64,000 nt of DNA from Flavobacterium johnsoniae UW101 (GTDB lineage: Bacteria; Bacteroidota; Bacteroidia; Flavobacteriales; Flavobacteriaceae): contig NC_009441.1 in NCBI RefSeq assembly GCF_000016645.1, positions 1,674,001-1,738,000 on the forward strand, in the 5' to 3' direction. Below, piece by piece: positions 38,176 through 63,380 of this stretch (position 1 is its first letter; the number at the start of each line of letters is the position of its first letter). The translations under genes were made by a program, and so were the position numbers. The notes beneath the pieces are model-generated. The model was not told the DNA's origin. It did no database searches and saw nothing but the letters and a program-made list of their open reading frames with translations.

Positions 38176-38338
38176 AATTTATTAAATTAACATTAAGCGA
38201 GGAAAAGTAATTGCTGAAAGTGCTAAAGGAGAGTTCCTGCTTTAGCATTTTTTACTACCGAAATCTTTGTTTCGGCATCCATAATGAACCGTTTCATTAT
38301 GAAGAGGTTGCAATCAGTTCAAATTTTTCCTCTGTATT
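38176..38338 (-). ncRNA. Structured metK leader, candidate SAM-II-like riboswitch
   Basis: On the minus strand the RNA begins near 38338. AGAGG pairs with CCTCT around a loop with ATTTGAACTGATTGCAA, matching the SAM-II pattern of a UUUG-type 5' segment and a UUGCA segment inside the first stem. Two extra hairpins follow (CATAATGAA/TTCATTATG and CCGAAA/TTTCGG), then a GCTAAAG element that pairs with CTTTAGC close to the gene. SAM-II aptamers normally have short loops; the inserted hairpins would make this a long-loop form, which I recall being described from Bacteroidetes but cannot check here. The gene context (metK) supports SAM sensing. Confidence 0.55.
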
Positions 38339-38445: not shown

Positions 38446-38464
38446 AAAATATTTTGATTTTTGT

Positions 38465-38495
38465 TTGGCTGATTAAAAAATAGTTTGCAAATTTG
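38465..38495 (+). promoter_or_regulatory. Candidate promoter of leader A
   Basis: TTG at 38465-38467, a 20-bp spacer and CAAATTTG at 38488-38495 (one mismatch to TAnnTTTG). The same TTG-N20-CAAATTTG arrangement precedes leader C. Confidence 0.45.
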
Positions 38496-38519: not shown

Positions 38520-38588
38520 ATGAAATTTACAGTTTGCAATATGATGTCTTGTAAGATGCCGGAATTCTCCGCAGAGACTCTATTGTAG
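38520..38588 (+). CDS. Met/Cys-rich leader peptide A (attenuator of the TonB receptor gene)
   Basis: A 22-codon frame begins MKFTVCNMMSCKM: four Met and two Cys codons, five of these within codons 6-13. It ends at TAG 38586-38588. It is followed by a terminator (38611-38640) and by a competing structure in which GCAGAG (38571-38576) and CTATTGT at the end of the frame pair with ACAAT..AATAG and CTCTGC, taking away the 5' arm of the terminator. A ribosome waiting at the Met/Cys codons would leave that 5' strand free and allow read-through. It is too short for usual gene prediction. The architecture is seen; the mechanism is inferred. Confidence 0.75.
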   Translation: MKFTVCNMMSCKMPEFSAETLL

Positions 38589-38607
38589 ATTTTTTTCAAC
38601 AATATAA

Positions 38608-38642
38608 TAGAACCTCTGCCCGCCGCAGAGGTTTTTTTTGTT
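38608..38642 (+). terminator. Attenuator terminator A
   Basis: AACCTCTGC (38611-38619) pairs with GCAGAGGTT (38625-38633) and is followed by a run of T. It lies between leader A and the receptor gene. The alternative partner of CTCTGC is GCAGAG at 38571-38576. Confidence 0.88.
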
Positions 38643-38700
38643 TCAAACCGAAAAAACTGTAAGTCTTTTAAGCCAAAAACAAATTAATCACTAAAAAGAA

Positions 38701-41547
38701 ATGAAAAAAAATGTACTAATCGTTTTGGGTCTTGTGACATTTTCAGGCCTTTATGCTCAGGACAATAAAACCGAGCAGGATTCTTTGAAGAATAATGAAT
38801 TGTCAGAAGTAACCATAATTGGATCAAGAAGTAAGAACAGAGTAAAAACAGATGTGCCGGTTCCGGTTGATGTTTTTAATATTGCCGATATTACAAAAGG
38901 AGCGCCGCAAACCAGCGTAACTCAAATTTTAAATTATGTTGCGCCGTCGTTTACAAGTAACGCAACATCAACTGCCGATGCAACAGATCACGTTGATCCG
39001 GCACAATTAAGAGGTTTAGGACCAGATCAGGTTTTAATTTTAGTAAACGGAAAACGAAGACATACCAGCGCATTGGTAAACATAAACGGATCGCCGGGAA
39101 GAGGATCTGTAGGAACTGATTTAAATGCCATTCCATCTTTTGCTATTGAAAGAATCGAAGTTTTGAGAGACGGTGCGGCTGCACAATATGGTTCAGATGC
39201 TATTGCAGGAGTTATCAATATCGTATTAAAGAAAAATGCCAACTATATTTCTGGAGGAGTTCAGTATGGAGCTAACTTGTCATCAGGTTCAAATAACTTT
39301 AAAGGAGGATCAGATGGACAAACAACCCAGATTGATTTAAATTACGGAACTTCTTTAGGAAAACCCGGAAGTTATTTAAACCTAACTGCTGTTGGTGTAA
39401 CAAGACAGGCAACAAGCAGAGCAGGAATTAGAAATAACGGAATTTTTAATGCTTATAATGCTGTAGAAAACAGAGCGGCTCAAAATGGAGTCGAAATCAA
39501 TTCATTGTTCAGTAATATTAATGCGACTGGAAATTCGGCACAAATTATAAGTTCGCTGCAGCAATATGCGCCGCAGGTAAGTTATTTTACAACAGCACAG
39601 CAAAATGCAATTGCATCGGCAACAACAATTGCTCAAATGCAGACAGCGCTTAATTTTGATGTTACTAATAATGAGTTAGCTTACAGAGGACAGCAAAGAG
39701 CAGATTATAATATGAGTGTGGGTCAGTCAGAATTGGCTTCGGGACAGGCATATTATAATGCAAAATATCCTTTAACCGAAACAACTTCACTATATTCATT
39801 TGGAGGAATCTCTTATAGAAACGGGAAATCGTATGCTTTTAACAGACTGCCAAACGGTTCAGGAACTTTCACGCAAGTGTATCAAAACGGATTTTTACCG
39901 GAAATTGAATCTAAAATTTTAGATGCTTCAGCTGCACTTGGGGTTACAACAAATATTTTAGGCTTCGATACAGATTTAAGCACCAATTTAGGAACCAATT
40001 CATTTAATTATGATGTAAACAATACTATCAATGCTACTTTAGGAACCAATTCACCTTTGAGTTTCGATGCTGGAAAAGTTTCATTTTTACAAAGCACAAC
40101 CAATTTAGATTTCAGTAAAAAGCTTGATGTTCTTTCTGGATTAAATGTTGCTTTTGGAGGAGAATTTAGATATGAAAATTACCAAATTAAAGCAGGAGAA
40201 GAAGCTTCATACGGATTATATGATGTAAACGGAGCTTTGGTAACCGGAATTTTACCAAGTACTTCACCTTTAATTGTTACTGATTTCTTTGGCAACAAAC
40301 GTGGAGCGGGAGCGCAGGGATTCTCAGGATTTCAGCCTTCAGATGCTAAAGAAAAAGACAGACAAAGCGGTGCTGCCTACATTGATTTAGAGTTGAATGC
40401 AACCGAAAAATGGCTGGTAAACGGAGCGGCACGTTATGAAAACTATTCAGATTTTGGAAGTACAGTTACTTTTAAATTAGCTTCTCTTTTAAAATTAACA
40501 GATAATATCAATTGGAGAGTTTCAGGACAGACAGGTTTTAGAGCGCCATCATTACAGCAAAAATATTTTGAAAGCAGTTCTACACAATTCATTAATGGGG
40601 CGCCTTATCAGGTTGGATATTTTACAAATGATTCTCAGGCCGCAAAAAGTATTGGTGTAGAAAATTTAAAACCAGAAAAATCAAAAAGCATCAGTACAGG
40701 ATTTACATTTAAAATTCCGGAAGCAAACATTACAATTTCTACAGATGCTTATTATACAAGAATCAACGACAGAATTGTTTTATCAGGACAATATGCAAGA
40801 CCAACAGATGCACAGATAAATGCTGCAACATCGCAGACACAAAAAGATGCTTTGACATTGTTTCAACAGGCATTTGATTTAAAAGGTGTTGAGAGAGCTT
40901 CATTCTGGACAAACGGAATTGACTCAGAAACAAAAGGAGTTGATTTAGTAATTTCTCAAAAATATGATGTAATTCAGGATTTTGTAATCAGAAACGATTT
41001 TGCTTTAAGTTTTAATGAAACAAAAAGAGTAGGCGCTTTAAATGTACCACAGTCTATTATTGATGCAGGAGGCGATCCTTATATATATTCATTTTTTCCT
41101 GAGTCAAGCCGAATTTATTTAGAAGAAGCAATTCCGAAATTAAAAGCAAACCTAACAACGACTTTCAGTATCAAAAAACTGGATATATATTTAAGGAACA
41201 GCTATTTTGGAAAAGTAACAGATCCGGGAGCAACAGATGTTAATTTAGATGGATTTTCTTCTGTTTACGAACATCCGGAATACAGTGCAAAACTAGTAAC
41301 CGATTTATCTTTTGGATACCAGATAAACGAACATTTTAGAGCGACTGTTGGATTTAATAATATAGGAGATGTTTATCCGGACAGAAATAATCCTTCGACT
41401 CCGGCTTTCACAAACACAACTCCAACTTTATCTCCGGCGCCAAGTACAGACTTAACAAACGCAAATCAGTTTGCATATTCAAGAGCTGTATCGCAATTTG
41501 GATTAAACGGAAGATTTGGATTTGCACGTTTAAGCTTTAAATTTTAA
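38701..41547 (+). CDS. TonB-dependent outer-membrane receptor
   Basis: The 948 aa protein has a signal peptide (MKKNVLIVLGLVTFSGLYAQ), a TonB-box-like region (NELSEVTIIGSRSKN), a plug domain (about 45-170) with VDPAQLRGLGPDQVLILVNG and IERIEVLRDGAAAQYGSDAI AGVIN-type motifs, and a barrel ending GRFGFARLSFKF. The family imports siderophores, cobalamin, peptides or other scarce nutrients. Here the gene follows a Met/Cys attenuator and faces metK, so uptake of a sulfur compound, methionine-containing peptide or similar is a reasonable inference, not shown by the receptor sequence itself. Confidence 0.9.
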   Translation: MKKNVLIVLGLVTFSGLYAQDNKTEQDSLKNNELSEVTIIGSRSKNRVKTDVPVPVDVFNIADITKGAPQTSVTQILNYVAPSFTSNATSTADATDHVDPAQLRGLGPDQVLILVNGKRRHTSALVNINGSPGRGSVGTDLNAIPSFAIERIEVLRDGAAAQYGSDAIAGVINIVLKKNANYISGGVQYGANLSSGSNNFKGGSDGQTTQIDLNYGTSLGKPGSYLNLTAVGVTRQATSRAGIRNNGIFNAYNAVENRAAQNGVEINSLFSNINATGNSAQIISSLQQYAPQVSYFTTAQQNAIASATTIAQMQTALNFDVTNNELAYRGQQRADYNMSVGQSELASGQAYYNAKYPLTETTSLYSFGGISYRNGKSYAFNRLPNGSGTFTQVYQNGFLPEIESKILDASAALGVTTNILGFDTDLSTNLGTNSFNYDVNNTINATLGTNSPLSFDAGKVSFLQSTTNLDFSKKLDVLSGLNVAFGGEFRYENYQIKAGEEASYGLYDVNGALVTGILPSTSPLIVTDFFGNKRGAGAQGFSGFQPSDAKEKDRQSGAAYIDLELNATEKWLVNGAARYENYSDFGSTVTFKLASLLKLTDNINWRVSGQTGFRAPSLQQKYFESSSTQFINGAPYQVGYFTNDSQAAKSIGVENLKPEKSKSISTGFTFKIPEANITISTDAYYTRINDRIVLSGQYARPTDAQINAATSQTQKDALTLFQQAFDLKGVERASFWTNGIDSETKGVDLVISQKYDVIQDFVIRNDFALSFNETKRVGALNVPQSIIDAGGDPYIYSFFPESSRIYLEEAIPKLKANLTTTFSIKKLDIYLRNSYFGKVTDPGATDVNLDGFSSVYEHPEYSAKLVTDLSFGYQINEHFRATVGFNNIGDVYPDRNNPSTPAFTNTTPTLSPAPSTDLTNANQFAYSRAVSQFGLNGRFGFARLSFKF

Positions 41548-41560
41548 AGTAAAAGAATAG

Positions 41561-41640
41561 ACCACAGATTATAAAGATTAGACGAATTAGCGCTGATTTT
41601 TTAAATCAATGTAATCTTATTAATCTGTGGCTAATTTTTT
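41561..41640. repeat. Palindromic CCACAGATTA element
   Basis: The left arm at 41562-41580 (CCACAGATTATAAAGATTA) and right arm 41612-41630 are inverted copies with two differences in 19. A T-run follows, so it may end the receptor transcript. It resembles the element at 18495-18612 in the CAGATT/AATCTG core. Confidence 0.7.
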
Positions 41641-41714
41641 TATGATATTAATTAAGCTGGAGAACTTAATTTAATTGAGTTAGAAAATTTTAATATAAAA
41701 TATCAAACTTTTAT

Positions 41715-41745
41715 TTGGCAGTTAGAAAAATAGTTATTACATTTA
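41715..41745 (+). promoter_or_regulatory. Candidate promoter of leader B
   Basis: TTG at 41715-41717, a 20-bp spacer and TACATTTA at 41738-41745. It would start the transcript about 40 nt before leader B. Confidence 0.45.
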
Positions 41746-41759
41746 CTCTATCGAATTAG
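41741..41759. promoter_or_regulatory. Candidate operator B, related to the sulfur dyad motif
   Basis: ATTTACTCTATCGAATTAG matches the reverse complement of operator A at 14 of 19 positions, with the core CTATC kept. It overlaps the -7 element and presumed start point. Confidence 0.4.
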
Positions 41760-41790
41760 TCGAGTTTAAAAAAGATAAATTTTAAAAGAA

Positions 41791-41871
41791 ATGAAAACAA
41801 TAGCAGGAAAAAATATGATGTGTTGTAGTATGATGCAAATGTGCATCCAACCTTGCTGTTGCCAAAAGTAA
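41791..41871 (+). CDS. Met/Cys-rich leader peptide B (attenuator of the metY operon)
   Basis: This 26-codon frame has six Met and six Cys codons, including the runs NMMCCSMMQMC and QPCCCQK before TAA. Such composition does not arise easily by chance. The last codons (CCAAAAG, 41862-41868) can pair with CTTTTGG (41907-41913), enclosing two small hairpins (AAAGAT/ATCTTT, TTATAG/CTATAA), which prevents the terminator at 41902-41932. Ribosome position therefore decides between the two structures. The downstream genes make homocysteine/methionine, exactly the amino acids counted. It is the clearest of the three leaders. Confidence 0.85.
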   Translation: MKTIAGKNMMCCSMMQMCIQPCCCQK

Positions 41872-41901
41872 AAGATACAATCTTTGTTATAGTTACACTA
41901 T

Positions 41902-41938
41902 AAGCCCTTTTGGTCGCCATCCGAAAGGGCTTTTTTCA
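41902..41938 (+). terminator. Attenuator terminator B
   Basis: AAGCCCTTT (41902-41910) pairs with AAAGGGCTT (41924-41932), followed by T-run. It lies 30 nt after leader B and before the small gene at 41963. Confidence 0.9.
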
Positions 41939-41962
41939 TTTCAACACTTTAAATTAAAAATC

Positions 41963-42151
41963 ATGAAAACATTAAATTCCATAGCAGTAGAATATTTATT
42001 GAGAAACGATTCTCAAAATGACAATAACAAATCAGAAAATCTAACAAAAGAAATCACAAGAATCAATTCAGAACAAGATAGAAAAGTTCAAAAATCATTA
42101 CTGTTTCAAATGTATGATCTTGAAATAGAAGGAGAATTTTCTTTTGCTTAA
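41963..42151 (+). CDS. Small protein of unknown function in the metY operon
   Basis: The 62 aa protein starts MKTLNSIAVEYLLRND, with a polar, Asn/Lys/Glu-rich middle, and ends with VQKSLLFQMYDLEIEGEFSF. It has no signal peptide or membrane helix. It stands just after attenuator B and 73 bp before metY. A second small gene after attenuator C (45273-45464) has the same size and a similar C-terminal K-SLLF-x-MY segment, so the two look related. I recognise no domain; a regulatory or enzyme-partner role is possible. Confidence 0.6.
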   Translation: MKTLNSIAVEYLLRNDSQNDNNKSENLTKEITRINSEQDRKVQKSLLFQMYDLEIEGEFSFA

Positions 42152-42224
42152 TCACCACAAAATTTAATTACAATCAGATAACAATATATAATAGTATTAA
42201 CAATACCTAAAAAACTAAGAAATC

Positions 42225-43529
42225 ATGAGCACACAAAAATTTGCAACAAACGCATTACACGCAGGACACGATGTTACCAAAAATTCAGGAACAAGAGCAG
42301 TACCAATTTATCAGACATCATCATACGTATTTAATAATGCCGATCATGCTGCCAATTTATTCGGTCTTGCCGAAGCCGGATTTATTTACACAAGATTAAA
42401 TAACCCAACAAACGATGTTTTAGAACAGAGGCTTGCCACACTCGAAGGCGGTATTGGAGCTGTAGTTACGGCATCTGGAGCATCAGCAATTTCTACCACT
42501 TTATTAACTTTATTAAGAACCGGCGATCATATCGTCGCATCAAATAGTTTATACGGCGGTACTTACAACTTATTAAGCGTAACATTACCTCGTTTAGGAA
42601 TTACAACCACTTTTGTAGACCCTTCAGATCCACAAAATTTCACTAAAGCAGCAAAAGAAAATACCAGAGCATTTTTTGTAGAATCTTTAGGAAATCCAAA
42701 ATTAGACGTATTAGACTTAAAAGCAATTTCGGCAGAAGCCAAAGCATTTAAAGTGCCATTTATAGTAGACAATACAGTTGCGACACCTTATTTATTAAAC
42801 CCAATTAAATATGGTGCCGATATTGTAATTCACTCATTAACTAAATATATAGCCGGAAACGGAACATCATTAGGCGGTGTAATTATCGATGCCGGAAACT
42901 TTGACTGGGCTAATGGAAAATTTCCTGAATTTACAGAGCCGTCTGCAGGATATCACGGATTAGTATATCACGAAGCTTTAGGAAATGCAGCCTTTATTGC
43001 AAAAGCAAGAATCGAAGGATTACGAGATTTCGGAGCTGCTTTGAGTCCGTTTAATGCTTTTCAGATAATTCAGGGATTAGAAACACTTCCAATCCGAATT
43101 AAAAAACACAGTGAAAATGCTTTGGTTCTGGCCGAATGGTTAGAAAAACAAGATGAGGTAGTCTGGGTAAATTATCCAGGTTTGAAATCAAATAAATATT
43201 ATGATTTAGCCAAAGAATATCTTCCGGAAGGGCAAAGCGGTATTATCACCTTTGGATTAAAAGGAGGTTTTGACGCCGCTAAAAAAGTAGTAGACGAAAC
43301 GAAGTTATTCTCGCTTTTGGCCAATATTGGCGACACAAAATCGCTGATTATTCACCCTGCAAGCACTACTCACCAGCAATTGTCTGAAGAAGACCAATTG
43401 GCTACAGGAGTATCAAAAGATTTAGTCCGACTTTCTGTTGGAATAGAAGATGTTGAAGATTTAATTGCCGACTTACAAGCGGTTTTTGAAAGCGTAACCC
43501 AATCGCAGTACAGCATCAATAAGAATTAG
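42225..43529 (+). CDS. metY: O-acetylhomoserine sulfhydrylase (aminocarboxypropyltransferase)
   Basis: This PLP enzyme makes homocysteine directly from O-acetylhomoserine and sulfide. The 434 aa length and motifs match MetY of the Cys/Met metabolism family: TNALHAGHDVTKNSGTRAVP at the N-terminus, SGASAISTTLLTLL, and the PLP-lysine in IVIHSLTKYIAGNGTSLGGV. The long insert before FTEPSAGYHGLVYHEALG is a MetY hallmark. It is controlled by attenuator B. A second, shorter sulfhydrylase (metZ) lies in the same island under a SAM riboswitch. Confidence 0.94.
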   Translation: MSTQKFATNALHAGHDVTKNSGTRAVPIYQTSSYVFNNADHAANLFGLAEAGFIYTRLNNPTNDVLEQRLATLEGGIGAVVTASGASAISTTLLTLLRTGDHIVASNSLYGGTYNLLSVTLPRLGITTTFVDPSDPQNFTKAAKENTRAFFVESLGNPKLDVLDLKAISAEAKAFKVPFIVDNTVATPYLLNPIKYGADIVIHSLTKYIAGNGTSLGGVIIDAGNFDWANGKFPEFTEPSAGYHGLVYHEALGNAAFIAKARIEGLRDFGAALSPFNAFQIIQGLETLPIRIKKHSENALVLAEWLEKQDEVVWVNYPGLKSNKYYDLAKEYLPEGQSGIITFGLKGGFDAAKKVVDETKLFSLLANIGDTKSLIIHPASTTHQQLSEEDQLATGVSKDLVRLSVGIEDVEDLIADLQAVFESVTQSQYSINKN

Positions 43530-43554
43530 GTTTTTTTGTTTTTTGTTTGAAAAA

Positions 43555-43592
43555 TTGCCTTTAGCAGCGTGAGTTCTGCTAGAGGTGATTTT
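43555..43592 (+). terminator. Terminator-like hairpin between metY and the HSD-like gene
   Basis: CCTTTAGCAG pairs with CTGCTAGAGG with one internal mismatch, followed by GATTTTTTAT. It would reduce expression of the downstream gene relative to metY. Confidence 0.6.
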
Positions 43593-43639
43593 TTATGAAA
43601 AGAAAATCATCATACAGATATATTTTAAAAATTAAAATT

Positions 43640-44728
43640 ATGTCAAAGCTTAAAATAAATATCATCCTATTTGGAATAGGAAATATAGGAAGCACATTAA
43701 TCAATCAGATTATCGAAAGTCAGGAGTTTTTTCTGCAAAGCAAAAATGTTGATTTTCATTTTCCTATCATCACCAATTCTACAGTAGCCTTTTTCGAGAA
43801 AGAAGGTGTTGGATATGCCTGGGAAACCAATTTTAGAGAATTGGCTGTTCCGTTTAGAGTCGAAGATATTATTGAATTTGCAAAAGAAAACGAATTCGAA
43901 AATCTTATTGCCGTTGATGCCACTGCCAGCGACGAATTGATTGGTCATTATAATACTTTAATCGAAAACGGATTCAATATCGTGGCTGTAAACAAAAAAG
44001 CCAATACGCTCCCAATTGATCTCTATAAAAAAATTAGGGAAAATCTAAAAAAATACGACAAAGAGTTCTTGTATGAAACCTCCGTAGATACAGGATTTCC
44101 GGTTTTGCAGACATTAAGAGATTTGTATTATTCAGGAGAAAAAATAACCAAAATACGAGGTGTGTTTTCAGATAACCTGAGTTATGTATTTAATCGTTTT
44201 TCGGCCGAAGAAAACTCTTTTTCCTCTATTTTAAAAGATGCCAGCCTTCTCGGATTAATGCGTTCTACATTTAAAGAAGATCTGTCTGGAAATGATACAG
44301 CCAGAAAATTATTGATCCTGACGAGGGAAATAGGAAAAGAATTCGAATTTTCAGATATCAAAATTCATCCTCTGATAAGAGAAGAACATTTAGAAAAAAA
44401 TGGAATACTGAATAAAGATGCTATTGATAAATCATTTAAAATTGCCAAAATAACCCAAAAAGACAATCACGTCTTACGATATATAGGAGAATTTGATGTT
44501 GAAAAAAATACTCTCGAAGTAAAATTAGTCTCAGAACCTGTAACATCAGCAATTGGCCAGTTAAAAGGTTCAGACTCTATTTTCGAAATTTACACACAAT
44601 CTTATGCTAATACTCCAATTGTGCTTCAAAGCGCATCACCGTGCAAACAGGCAATTTCGAGAGGTTTAATAACCGATATTCTAAAAGTTGCAGAAAAAAT
44701 AAAAAATAAAGAAGCAGTCTGGCTTTAG
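43640..44728 (+). CDS. Divergent homoserine dehydrogenase-like protein
   Basis: The 362 aa protein has the NAD(P) loop FGIGNIGSTLI, the region IAVDATASDELIGHYNTLIE, VAVNKKANT with the catalytic-type Lys, and DLSGNDTARKLLILTREIGK. It matches the second half of the nearby thrA. Where thrA and true homoserine dehydrogenases have GYTEPDPREDL, this protein has GLMRSTFKEDL, so the Glu of the substrate site and an adjacent Asp are lost. It may be a non-catalytic or altered-function paralogue. The frame is open to 43595, but the SKLKIN start at 43640 matches the family. It lies in the metY operon behind a hairpin. Confidence 0.78.
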   Translation: MSKLKINIILFGIGNIGSTLINQIIESQEFFLQSKNVDFHFPIITNSTVAFFEKEGVGYAWETNFRELAVPFRVEDIIEFAKENEFENLIAVDATASDELIGHYNTLIENGFNIVAVNKKANTLPIDLYKKIRENLKKYDKEFLYETSVDTGFPVLQTLRDLYYSGEKITKIRGVFSDNLSYVFNRFSAEENSFSSILKDASLLGLMRSTFKEDLSGNDTARKLLILTREIGKEFEFSDIKIHPLIREEHLEKNGILNKDAIDKSFKIAKITQKDNHVLRYIGEFDVEKNTLEVKLVSEPVTSAIGQLKGSDSIFEIYTQSYANTPIVLQSASPCKQAISRGLITDILKVAEKIKNKEAVWL

Positions 44729-45062
44729 TGGTTTTTCAATATTAGATAGTTCTTTGACAGATTGAAACAGAAAGTTAGATATTTTTTGTAAGATTTAACC
44801 TTCTTTAATTCAAAATGTAATTTTGTAAGATGTTTTTTAACGATAAAAAGCTTTTTTTTAACGTTTTTTAAGAAAAAATAAGCTTTTATAACTTGCAATA
44901 TTAAAAAAATATTCGCAAATTTGTAAGACAAGTTAGAACTGTTAAAAAAGCAGTAATAATTGTTAAAATAGACAAAAACACTTTTTCGATTTTAATCACA
45001 TCAAAAAAGTTTATAAAAAATACTAAATGCAAGATTTTTTAAAAATAACAGTCAAATCACAA
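44729..45062. other. AT-rich promoter region before leader C
   Basis: No gene is visible. The word TTTGTAAGA occurs three times (44785-44793, 44822-44830, 44920-44928). A candidate promoter, TTG at 44893-44895, 20 bp, CAAATTTG at 44916-44923, would give a long leader (about 130 nt) before leader C; a nearer start cannot be excluded. Confidence 0.45.
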
Positions 45063-45128
45063 ATGAATAAGTCCCTACAGATGAACAAGATGTTCAATGT
45101 CGCACGTATTTGTGTATGCGTCTGTTGA
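45063..45128 (+). CDS. Cys/Met-containing leader peptide C (attenuator upstream of the metX region)
   Basis: This 21-codon frame has Met at 1, 7 and 10 and ends in ARICVCVC followed by TGA, so three of the last five codons are Cys. Just after the stop, CTAAAAG (45131-45137) can pair with CTTTTGG (45166-45172), enclosing a TAAGTT/AACTTA hairpin, and this disrupts the terminator at 45163-45192. The arrangement equals that of leaders A and B. The Cys codons lie closer to the antiterminator than in A and B, so the details of stalling may differ. Confidence 0.75.
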   Translation: MNKSLQMNKMFNVARICVCVC

Positions 45129-45160
45129 TACTAAAAGTATATATAAGTTGTATAAAACTT

Positions 45161-45199
45161 AGACCCTTTTGGTATTAAAAATCCAAAAGGGTTTTTTTA
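45161..45199 (+). terminator. Attenuator terminator C
   Basis: ACCCTTTTGG (45163-45172) pairs perfectly with CCAAAAGGGT (45183-45192), then a T-run. It lies between leader C and the small gene at 45273. Confidence 0.9.
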
Positions 45200-45272
45200 T
45201 TCCATTTAGCATCATAACAAAGAATTAAAGTAAACATAAGATTAAAAAATAACTAACATAAACTTAAACATC

Positions 45273-45464
45273 ATGAGCGCAATTAACTACTTAAGAAAAA
45301 AATTCAGAAGTACAAAAACTGAAAGAAACAATCCGCCGCCAGCAAATGAATTGATCCACCCAAGTTTCGGAATAACTGAAACAGATAAAAAAGCGGTAAA
45401 AAAAGCACCAAATTCATTGTTGTTTTTGATGTATTCTAAAGAAAATGAAACGCTTTTCATCTAA
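45273..45464 (+). CDS. Small basic protein of unknown function after attenuator C
   Basis: The 63 aa protein starts MSAINYLRKKFRSTKTERNN, has a Pro-rich middle (PPPANELIHPSFGITE) and ends KKAPNSLLFLMYSKENETLF I-type tail. The SLLF-x-MY segment is shared with the small protein at 41963-42151, which also follows an attenuator. It has no signal peptide or membrane segment. Conservation of size, position and motif supports that it is real. It precedes the metX riboswitch region by 190 bp. The function is unknown. Confidence 0.55.
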   Translation: MSAINYLRKKFRSTKTERNNPPPANELIHPSFGITETDKKAVKKAPNSLLFLMYSKENETLFI

Positions 45465-45626: not shown

Positions 45627-45656
45627 CACCGTTAAGTTCAAAAACGTATTGAAAAT

Positions 45657-45761
45657 GTTATAAAGAAAGGAGGAGGGATTAGACCCGATGAATCCTTAGC
45701 AACCCTTCGTTAATTCGAAGAAGGTGCTGCATTCTACCACGCCCAAACGTGGAAAGATAAC
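45657..45761 (+). ncRNA. SAM-I (S-box) riboswitch upstream of metX
   Basis: The conserved S-box core is present: GGAGGGATTAGACCCGATGA, then ATCCTTAGCAACCCTT, AAGGTGCTGCATTCTACC and GGAAAGATAAC, with the closing stem GTTAT (45657-45661) and ATAAC (45757-45761). It binds SAM and shuts down expression in classical systems. The following sequence has a TCTAG/CTAGA hairpin but no long T-run, so the off state may not be a standard terminator. It controls metX-thrA-osmC-metZ. Confidence 0.95.
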
Positions 45762-45836
45762 AACAAGAATTTTTCTAGTTTCAACTCTAGACTTTCTTTC
45801 TAATATTTCCACATACAAATCAAAAAGTAAAAAGAT

Positions 45837-46826
45837 TTGAAATTGGAAAATATACCAAGTCCCATTATAATTCAAGATTTCATCACCGAAAGTGGTGCAC
45901 TGTATCAATCGTTACCGTTAAGTTTTACACTTTCCGGAAAACCGTTGTATACCGCTCCAATTGTTTTGGTTAATCATGCCTTAACCGGAAACGCACAAGT
46001 TACCGGCGAAAATGGCTGGTGGAGTGATCTAATCGGCGAAGCCAAAACTATCGATACCAATCAATATACCGTTTTAGCATTTAATGTTCCCGGAAACGGA
46101 ACCGATTCGTTTATAATCGAGAATTATCAGGATTTTACAACCAGAGATATTGCCAAAATCTTCATCAAAGGATTAAAAGCACTGCATATTGAAAAAGTTT
46201 TTGCCATAATAGGCGGTTCTGTCGGCGGAGGAATCGCTTGGGAAATTTTGGCTCTGGACCCCAATATTACAGAACATTTAATTCCTATTGCTACCGATTG
46301 GAAATCGACTGACTGGATGATTGCCAACTGTTTCCTGCAAGAACAAATTCTAAACAATTCTTCGAGACCAATCGAAGATGCCAGAATACACGCTATGTTG
46401 TGTTACCGTTCTCCGGAATCATTCAAAGAAAAATTTCAGCGAACCATCAATCAGGATCTTTTGATTTTTAATATCGAAAGCTGGCTGGCTCATCATGGCA
46501 AAAAATTACAGCAGCGATATCAGTTGTCATCTTATAAATTGATGAACCAATTGCTTAAAACCATCGATATTACCAGAAATAGTGAGGATTTCGAAACGTT
46601 AATATCTAAATCAAATGCTGCGATTCATATCGTGGCTATCAATTCAGATTTGTTTTTTACACCAAAAGAAAATCTGGAAACCTACAATGAATTAAAGAAA
46701 TTTAAAAACAATGTTTTTTACAGCGAGATTGATTCGGTTCACGGACATGACGCTTTTTTAATCGAGTACAAACAATTAGATCATTTACTTGCCGATATTT
46801 TTAAGGCAGAAACAATAGCAAAATAA
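45837..46826 (+). CDS. metX: Homoserine O-acetyltransferase
   Basis: This alpha/beta-hydrolase-fold enzyme acetylates homoserine for methionine synthesis. The 329 aa protein has IVLVNHALTGNAQVTGENGW, the nucleophile elbow IIGGSVGGGIAWEI, and the terminal SVHGHDAFLIEYKQL with the catalytic His, as in MetX. There is no ATG at the front: the frame opens with TTG at 45837, and a second TTG at 45843 would give MENIPSP-type N-terminus as in relatives, so the start may be 45843. It lies 75 nt after the SAM-I aptamer and is followed by thrA with 1 bp between. Confidence 0.93.
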   Translation: MKLENIPSPIIIQDFITESGALYQSLPLSFTLSGKPLYTAPIVLVNHALTGNAQVTGENGWWSDLIGEAKTIDTNQYTVLAFNVPGNGTDSFIIENYQDFTTRDIAKIFIKGLKALHIEKVFAIIGGSVGGGIAWEILALDPNITEHLIPIATDWKSTDWMIANCFLQEQILNNSSRPIEDARIHAMLCYRSPESFKEKFQRTINQDLLIFNIESWLAHHGKKLQQRYQLSSYKLMNQLLKTIDITRNSEDFETLISKSNAAIHIVAINSDLFFTPKENLETYNELKKFKNNVFYSEIDSVHGHDAFLIEYKQLDHLLADIFKAETIAK

Positions 46827-62915: not shown

Positions 62916-62938
62916 CACTGTTCTTAAAATTATTGTCA

Positions 62939-63051
62939 GTTATCACGAAAGGCGGAGGGATAGACCCGATGAAACCTTAGCAACCCTTTATCATAAAGAA
63001 GGTGCTAAATTCTACTTTATACGACATTTTCCAGTATTAAAGATAGATAAC
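62939..63051 (+). ncRNA. SAM-I (S-box) riboswitch upstream of metH
   Basis: The S-box core is present: GGAGGGATAGACCCGATGAA, ACCTTAGCAACCCTTT, AAGGTGCTAAATTCTAC and AAAGATAGATAAC, closed by GTTATC (62939-62944) and GATAAC (63046-63051). No clear T-rich terminator follows. Confidence 0.95.
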
Positions 63052-63380
63052 ACAAATACATACTCGTATTTCTCAAAACTTTTCCAGACAACATACAATA
63101 TTTACTGAAATAACTCAGTAAAGGAGCGAATCATTGGCGCATTTTTGCAGTCAATAGTTCCCGCTTTTCGTTGCAATCATTTTGCTTTTTTAAAGAAAAA
63201 AGCAAAATAATTTCCTCTTCAATCGGGGCTAATGAGCCAGCAATAGTGCACTTTTGGAATTAATGTGAACAAAATATTCGAAGCAAAGCTAACAGGTTTG
63301 CTTCAAAATCATAATAAAAAAACTTAGCATCTTAGTCCCGATAGCTATCGGGATAATCTCAGAAGCTAAAAAAATAAGCC
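63052..63380. other. Long untranslated stretch between the riboswitch and metH
   Basis: Over 300 nt without a believable frame. It holds hairpins AAATAC/GTATTT (right after the aptamer), GCTTTTTT/AAAAAAGC (63184-63203) and GAAGCAAA/TTTGCTTC (63280-63304) and a dispersed palindrome (63332-63355). Its role in riboswitch action is unclear. Confidence 0.5.
63332..63355. repeat. Dispersed palindrome, copy 2
   Basis: Identical over 24 bp to 49263-49286, containing CCCGATAGCTATCGGG. Confidence 0.75.

Follow-up and report, generated by a model that had tools for sequence, protein, structure and literature searches.

Three Met- and Cys-rich leaders in the F. johnsoniae window

A stretch of 64,000 nucleotides (nt) from Flavobacterium johnsoniae UW101 (contig NC_009441.1, positions 1,674,001 to 1,738,000; the window) contains three short reading frames rich in methionine (Met) and cysteine (Cys) codons, here called leaders A, B, and C. 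Each is followed by an intrinsic terminator with a T-run. Positions refer to the window, and features lie on the + strand unless stated otherwise. Leader A (MKFTVCNMMSCKMPEFSAETLL; 38520..38588), classed as type I, has 22 codons, with 4 Met and 2 Cys, and is followed by terminator A (38609..38639) and the gene of a TonB-dependent receptor (38701..41547; Pfam PF00593, PF07715). Four RNA strands are distinguished in this leader. Strand 1 (38535..38549) lies over the Cys-Asn-Met-Met-Ser codons and pairs with the last codons; strand 2 (38571..38588), the 5’ strand of the antiterminator, comprises the last codons and the stop; strands 3 (38611-38619) and 4 (38625-38633) form the terminator. A small hairpin, CGGA-AUUC-UCCG (38560..38571), is located within the 1:2 helix. 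Leader B (MKTIAGKNMMCCSMMQMCIQPCCCQK; 41791..41871), of type II, has 26 codons with 6 Met and 6 Cys. Its fold contains a hairpin, GAUGC-N6-GCAUC (41832..41847), that is paired though varied in several relatives (not counted). Strand 2 of its antiterminator, UUGCCAAAAGU (41859..41869), was assigned from the fold and from relatives, and terminator B (41902..41938) precedes metY (42225..43529), a member of the O-acetylhomoserine sulfhydrylase family (TIGR01326, 644 bits against a cut-off of 495). Leader C (MNKSLQMNKMFNVARICVCVC; 45063..45128), also type II, has 21 codons with 3 Met and 3 Cys, or 33 codons if an alternative in-frame ATG at 45027 is the start. Strand 2 of its antiterminator (45124..45138) was taken from the fold, and terminator C is at 45161..45200.

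Internal Met and Cys codons account for 5 of 21 positions in A, 11 of 25 in B, and 5 of 20 in C, compared to a background of 1.13% (68 of 5993 residues in nine window genes). The corresponding binomial p values, uncorrected for the choice of frames, are 3e-6, 2e-15, and 3e-6. The terminators fold with energies of -15.8, -18.5, and -16.0 kcal/mol for A, B, and C, respectively. When the RNA stops in or near the loop of the terminator, it folds instead as an antiterminator (A -19.4, B -12.5, C -12.5 kcal/mol) that begins in the last codons of the frame or at its stop. The end of each frame was also paired with the terminator 5’ arm and loop in a duplex test against dinucleotide shuffles, and the expected strand was recovered for A (p 0.017) and C (p 0.003). 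The frames with their codon counts, the terminators, and the alternative pairing from the frame end to the terminator 5’ arm had all been proposed in the initial annotation of this DNA, and all three were borne out.

Of the promoters that the same annotation placed at each locus, a good candidate was found for leader A only. A promoter-like pair, TTTG ... TAGTTTG (38460..38487; pattern match), lies 5’ of A and is of the Bacteroidetes promoter type. Leader B has a loose motif match, and a search of 140 nt upstream of each possible start of C found no TTTG/TAGTTTG-type pair. A scan with the sigma-70 consensus was uninformative (36 matches, 41.4 expected from shuffles).

Conservation of the leader reading frames

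Frames were compared at 81 loci, comprising the window and 80 named loci collected by metY similarity. Peptide patterns, which were written after the peptides had been seen, identified leader A at 72 loci, B at 65, and C at 61. Within 700 nt before metY, every one of the 80 named loci has one or more frames of at least five Met/Cys codons, in a count that includes the start codon, requires at least one Cys, and sets no terminator condition. Both Cys codons are used in columns where Cys is conserved: column 21 of leader B has TGC in 54 cases and TGT in 11, and column 17 of leader C has TGC in 33 and TGT in 26.

Two covariance models, R1 and R2, were used in the searches. Both treat the antiterminator as structure and hold the terminator as sequence, so that a match to either tests the terminator in a way that is not fully independent. 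R1 was run on 70 loci and the best 79 matches were considered, with E values no higher than about 3.5e-7 and the window among them. Many are rows that went into building R1; the model itself does not include the frame. Of the 79, 78 keep a frame of 17-30 codons that begins at model position 1, and 73 of these have ATG there. In this frame all 79 reach codon 17 free of stops; in the two remaining frames 3 and 23 do. Per 16 codons, Met and Cys together number 4.05 in frame, and the two out-of-frame values are 1.92 and 0.52.

All 78 intact type I frames contain an internal Met and six have no Cys, which makes Met, not Cys, the constant signal of this type. This amends the initial annotation, which named Met or Cys as the signal. 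In far genera the first leader, of type I, is often Met-only. From these codon patterns, Met appears to be the constant control codon of type I and Cys a frequent second one that joins in Flavobacterium. Within the genus, peptide sequences are conserved. Outside their Met and Cys residues they diverge strongly between genera, and the codon bias and the RNA helices persist despite this divergence.

RNA helices in related leaders

Pairing was assessed in alignment A4, which contains 37 type I leaders from Flavobacterium and other genera picked for diversity. The terminator (3:4) is paired in 98.5% of cells, compared to 37-60% in slid controls, and seven of its nine pairs have changed on both sides. 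The small hairpin and antiterminator (2:3) together are paired in 85.8% of cells (slid controls 42-54%), with six of nine pairs changed on both sides versus 2.5 in letter shuffles. The inner hairpin alone is paired in 80.2% of cells while its sequence varies, and it has other paired forms among relatives (CGGU/ACCG, CAGGA/UCCUG). In the first alignment, A1 (58 rows), 97.3% of terminator cells and 85.0% of hairpin and antiterminator cells were paired, and the cells changed on both sides outnumbered those in all letter shuffles. Type I leaders display covariation across three strands: CAGAG, CAGCG, CAGGG, and CAAGG in strand 2 are each mirrored in strands 3 and 4. Two further loci, L125 and L127, retain three and four of six pairs, respectively, in the 2:3 register. 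When leaders were folded without strand 3, strand 2 was paired in 37 of 37, partly with its own neighborhood.

The 1:2 helix, in which UGCAAUAUGU pairs with the last codons of type I leaders, has 76.7% of its cells paired versus 29.5-54.7% in slid controls, and 1 of 500 letter shuffles reached as high a value. This helix is the least certain of the three and is a type I result only. The inner hairpin alone had been considered as a polymerase pause hairpin, a candidate set aside once the 1:2 helix was found.

Evidence for type II (B, C, and relatives) comes from folds of 32 leaders inspected by eye. In these, strand 2 often reaches bases of the terminator loop, and strand 2 and the loop bases vary together. 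Paired variants include UUGCC:GGUAA, GAUAUUGCC:GGUAAUAUC, and GCUAUUGCCAG:CUGGUAAUAGC. The duplex between the strand 2 region and strand 3 plus loop was then scored in 33 leaders picked by hand to cover both types and several pathways; it beats shuffles at p<=0.05 in 22 of them, with a mean z of -3.0 over the set.

Distribution across genomes and pathways

The initial annotation had suggested a covariance search of relatives for such leaders before metY and metX genes, and this search recovered them. R1 matched 23 of 149 genomes of the family (Flavobacteriaceae) at E<=0.01, the genome itself and a congener included. The 23 R1 places outside the genus were judged by eye, and at 14 of them a Met-rich leader is followed by metY or by a metX-like gene. 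At L126 a Met-rich leader precedes a transposase-like open reading frame (ORF) near a contig end. At L137, Cys-only tandem leaders stand before serine acetyltransferase-like and cysteine-synthase-like genes. At L128, a class IV aminotransferase (ilvE-like) gene, apparently broken by a frame change, is preceded by a series of three Ile-rich leaders and their terminators. The assignment of one R1 place (L129) is ambiguous, and five (L130-L133 and L136) have no fitting leader and look like chance matches.

A model-free survey of 97 family genomes covered the 650 nt that precede metY. Besides the genome itself, 98 of 149 had metY at the cut-off; one of these (G157), with metY split over two contigs, was left out, and two of the 97 stretches are shortened by contig ends. 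A terminator is present in 37 of the 97 regions. A Met/Cys leader together with a terminator occurs in 13, of which eight are in tandem, compared to 0.27 expected when leader DNA is shuffled before the same terminators.

Within the class (Bacteroidia), 10 of 198 genomes had an R2 match at E<=0.01, with six places outside the genus. Three of these are Met/Cys or Cys leaders, found before metY, before a nitrite/sulfite reductase gene, and before acyltransferase and cysteine-synthase-like genes; the other three (L154-L156) were not counted as sulfur leaders. Model-free, 3 of 21 metY loci outside Flavobacterium (E<=1e-140) were positive (L167, L169, and L178). In L178, from a far family, a frame ending in STCCCCCC stands before a terminator upstream of metY, and no antiterminator between strands 2 and 3 was detectable there.

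In the F. johnsoniae genome itself, R2 gave 13 matches at E<=10, namely leader A and 12 weaker ones, of which 11 were examined by eye. Four of these 11 (E 0.3 to 8) are leaders with fitting codons: a Met/Cys leader before genes of an ABC transporter with a NIL domain and its permease (metNI-like), an Ile leader before a threonine dehydratase gene (ilvA-like), tandem Ile leaders before the gene of the acetolactate synthase small subunit (ilvN-like), and an Ile/Val leader before a dihydroxy-acid dehydratase gene (ilvD-like). The other seven (L140, L141, and L143-L147) have no fitting leader. A congener (L158) has tandem Met/Cys leaders before two genes with PAPS-reductase domains, cysH/cysD-like. 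Although the model scores are weak, the control codons appear to follow the pathway of the genes behind them, with Ile/Val before ilv genes, Cys before genes of cysteine synthesis, and Met/Cys before those of sulfate and sulfite reduction.

Relation to the SAM-I riboswitch and neighboring features

The S-adenosylmethionine (SAM) riboswitch SAM-I senses SAM directly. In Rfam searches, SAM-I (RF00162) was found in sense before metY in 71 of the 97 family regions. It occupies the same place as the leaders, and in none of these regions does it occur together with one: SAM-I is present in 0 of 13 leader-positive regions versus 71 of 84 others (Fisher p 2e-9, which ignores kinship). Thirteen of the 97 regions have neither, and one of these (L254) carries a SAM-II riboswitch in sense. 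A quick tree of metY, with 98 rows of which one is from the window, requires 12 changes of the leader label, compared to a mean of 13.4 when shuffled. Well-supported branches force only two leader changes, and gain and loss are indistinguishable on this tree.

No Rfam family reached its gathering score over the three window leaders. In particular, no SAM riboswitch scored above the Rfam cut-off at any of them, no T-box did so anywhere in the window, and Bacteroid-trp (RF01692) has no match in the window and one elsewhere in the genome. The best lax match on any leader was trpB (RF04312) on leader C, at 30.5 bits against 59. This family was dropped as terminator-like because it has 25 sub-threshold places in the same genome and matches in 5 of 14 control genomes, including E. 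coli and B. subtilis. Rfam elements elsewhere in the window are a SAM-II riboswitch before a divergent metK (38232-38338, - strand), a second SAM-I riboswitch (62937-63053, + strand), and a Flavo-1 element (63153-63234, - strand).

A 62-aa ORF (41963..42151; no Pfam match) lies between terminator B and metY, and a homoserine dehydrogenase gene (43595..44728; PF00742, PF03447) follows metY. Directly 3’ of terminator C is a 63-aa ORF (45273..45464; no Pfam or NCBIfam match), which was matched in 55 of 121 Flavobacterium genomes. By eye, the two small ORFs share an SLLFxMY stretch near the end and on that account look related. The initial annotation had placed such a leader upstream of metX. The leader itself is real; the 63-aa ORF is the frame directly behind it, and metX, which starts at 45837, has its own SAM-I riboswitch at 45655-45763. 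Leader C therefore controls metX at most indirectly.

In several relatives (e.g., L040), leader A directly precedes leader B and metY with no receptor gene between, so the receptor was either inserted into a tandem pair or lost from it. A further type I leader, type D (e.g., MKFNVCNMSKAIQEKSCGSLVA), precedes the C-type leader in many species (L091:9639-9765, L082:8861-8990, and others). R1 found no D-type leader before leader C in the window.

Discussion

Each of the three loci is very probably a ribosome-mediated transcription attenuator that senses the charging of Met- and Cys-transfer RNA (tRNA). The his/trp-type reading had been proposed in the initial annotation, and the parts that a sequence can test held up. 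Each locus has a short frame with codons fitting the pathway, the function of the next gene being readable for B and not for A and C; an intrinsic terminator stands between frame and gene; and an antiterminator leads from the frame end to the terminator 5’ arm, by test for A and C and by fold and relatives for B. In type I, the type examined for it, a 1:2 helix lies over the control codons and excludes 2:3.

In the proposed mechanism, RNA polymerase would make the leader and a ribosome would initiate at the leader ATG. With Met-tRNA and Cys-tRNA charged, the ribosome would reach the stop and cover strand 2, and the 3:4 terminator would form. A ribosome waiting at Met or Cys codons would break the 1:2 helix and free strand 2, which could then pair with the terminator 5’ arm and allow the polymerase to read through. 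In the absence of a ribosome, the 1:2 helix would favor termination. The direction of this response, on under Met/Cys shortage and off when the tRNAs are charged, is based on the geometry of the ribosome footprint, which extends about 15 nt to either side of the P site in E. coli. Measured by hand on leader A, a ribosome at the stop covers 38568-38598 and with it all of strand 2, and one at the last Met codon reaches about 38568 and leaves strand 2 free. Where two attenuators stand in tandem, the polymerase would have to get past each of them, and the response may be sharper as a result. Translation of the frame, stalling, read-through, and tRNA charging as the signal are what we infer from the sequences.

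Several results count against this interpretation. In leaders B and C, the last Cys codons are so near strand 2 that a ribosome there covers part of it, and only stalls at earlier codons would leave it fully free. The best duplex of leader B (p 0.023) uses a segment upstream of the proposed strand 2, so its antiterminator rests on the fold and on relatives. Starvation for Met also leaves the cell short of initiator tRNA, a complication for Met as a signal. Among the helices, letter shuffles of 1:2 already pair 73.2% of cells, and 82 of 500 reach the real count of pairs changed on both sides; pairing of strand 2 with upstream RNA is 0.71 for real and 0.64 for shuffled upstream sequence (mean energy z -1.3). 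In A1, the pairs changed on both sides were no more numerous than in letter shuffles. Paired changes are confined to few clades, D-type rows match the 2:3 register partly (3-5 of 6 pairs), 11 of the 33 hand-picked leaders singly do not beat shuffles, and the L178 duplex is worse than shuffles. Among the metY regions, 24 of the 37 with a terminator have no such leader, and the arrangement occurs sporadically beyond the family. With one or two internal Met/Cys codons left, D-type leaders and some of the C type are weak sensors at best. Loci that keep the terminator and lose the frame or its codons, named in the initial annotation as the refuting case, were sought among the 79 R1 matches. The stop is lost in one, from F. 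psychrophilum (L095), giving 41 codons, and a single internal Met/Cys codon remains in the model frame of two (L070 and L124), of which L124 is Met-rich in another frame.

Leader devices respond to stalls of whatever cause, and the same device might report slow or stalled leader translation in general, as under antibiotics, cold, or general starvation. Some D leaders, with only one or two control codons, would suit such a sensor. However, a general sensor has no need of codons that track the pathway, as these do before ilv genes, genes of Cys synthesis, and genes of Met synthesis and sulfur reduction, and we regard this alternative as improbable. We give even less credence to a terminator switched by a small molecule, a protein, or a trans-acting RNA, with the frame standing by or merely keeping ribosomes on the RNA. 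The type I 1:2 helix and inner hairpin could be read as a binding domain for such a factor, and SAM-I riboswitches do hold the same genomic place in relatives. However, a by-standing frame sits poorly with 78 of 79 frames being intact and with the tolerance of synonymous Cys changes, as does a binding domain with the absence of any Rfam family at gathering score over the leaders and with an inner hairpin whose sequence varies while its pairing holds.

A further alternative is that the peptides themselves act, for example as metal- or redox-binding peptides, with the terminators being ordinary. The CC, CCC, and MM runs resemble metal-binding peptides, and the peptides are conserved within the genus. 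Between genera, however, it is the residues other than Met and Cys that diverge while codon bias and helices stay, and the constraint on the frame end acts at the RNA level. A similar layout with Ile-rich frames before ilv-like genes, where metal binding would make no sense, likewise disfavors an active peptide, which we judge the least probable of these explanations. Ribosome-mediated attenuation by Met and Cys codons remains the preferred reading. A broader proposal, toward which we lean only slightly, is that Bacteroidia possess a modular family of attenuators. Its members would share an RNA core (control codons, a 1:2 helix with inner hairpin, 2:3, and 3:4) with codons swapped among Met, Met/Cys, Cys, and Ile/Val by pathway; charging of Met-tRNA would be the sulfur signal, serial pairs would form a two-step gate, and SAM-I at metY would have been replaced by the module, or have replaced it, several times.

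The trp and his leader attenuators of enterobacteria combine a short control-codon frame with helices 1:2, 2:3, and 3:4. The leaders described here resemble them in layout, with control codons, three helices, and strand 2 at the frame end, and differ in belonging to another phylum, in using Met and Cys codons, and in often standing as two complete attenuators in tandem. Bacteroid-trp, which we take to be a Trp leader, occurs in the F. johnsoniae genome (78.5 bits against a cut-off of 49, with the frame MRTIMNNTWWWNNLRQTS inside the match); it differs in its Trp codons, and the three window leaders do not match its model. The motif is listed by Weinberg 2010 (PMC2864571). In F. psychrophilum, leader-peptide attenuation has been proposed upstream of amino-acid biosynthesis operons, and the conserved 5’ elements in the main text include pheA and hisG; that main text does not contain the word methionine and mentions cysteine only in an unrelated passage (PMC9723704). 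Long 5’ untranslated regions of Bacteroides thetaiotaomicron hold short frames reminiscent of attenuating leader peptides, which the passages considered tie to no particular amino acid or mechanism (PMC7366714).

The mycobacterial polycysteine leaders are described as short upstream frames with Cys codons that attenuate the operon behind them (Canestrari 2020, via PMC13236596 and PMC9094748). Compared by that description, these differ in being leaderless ORFs (according to the title), in occurring in Actinobacteria, and in using Cys alone. The uORFC-8-2 motif shares the short frame, tandem Cys codons, and an intrinsic terminator, and differs in being found in Rhodobacterales, upstream of cysS, with Cys usually at codons 14 and 15 (PMC8632094). 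Among the matches listed for open-licence papers, no title, abstract opening, or passage considered described Met/Cys leaders in Bacteroidetes. The present leaders would extend attenuation of the trp/his type to Met and Cys in this phylum, where hints of it for other amino acids were already known.

Bacterial sulfur amino-acid genes are best known under the control of SAM riboswitches, T-boxes, and repressors. Here, that role seems to fall to a translating ribosome that senses charged tRNA, often through two serial attenuators. The exchange of leader and SAM-I at one gene in one family amounts to a natural experiment on why a cell would measure Met-tRNA rather than SAM. Leader A hints at a role in sulfur nutrition for the orphan TonB-dependent receptor behind it. 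If the proposed mechanism is true, the coupling of transcription and translation in this phylum would be close enough for control of the his/trp type.

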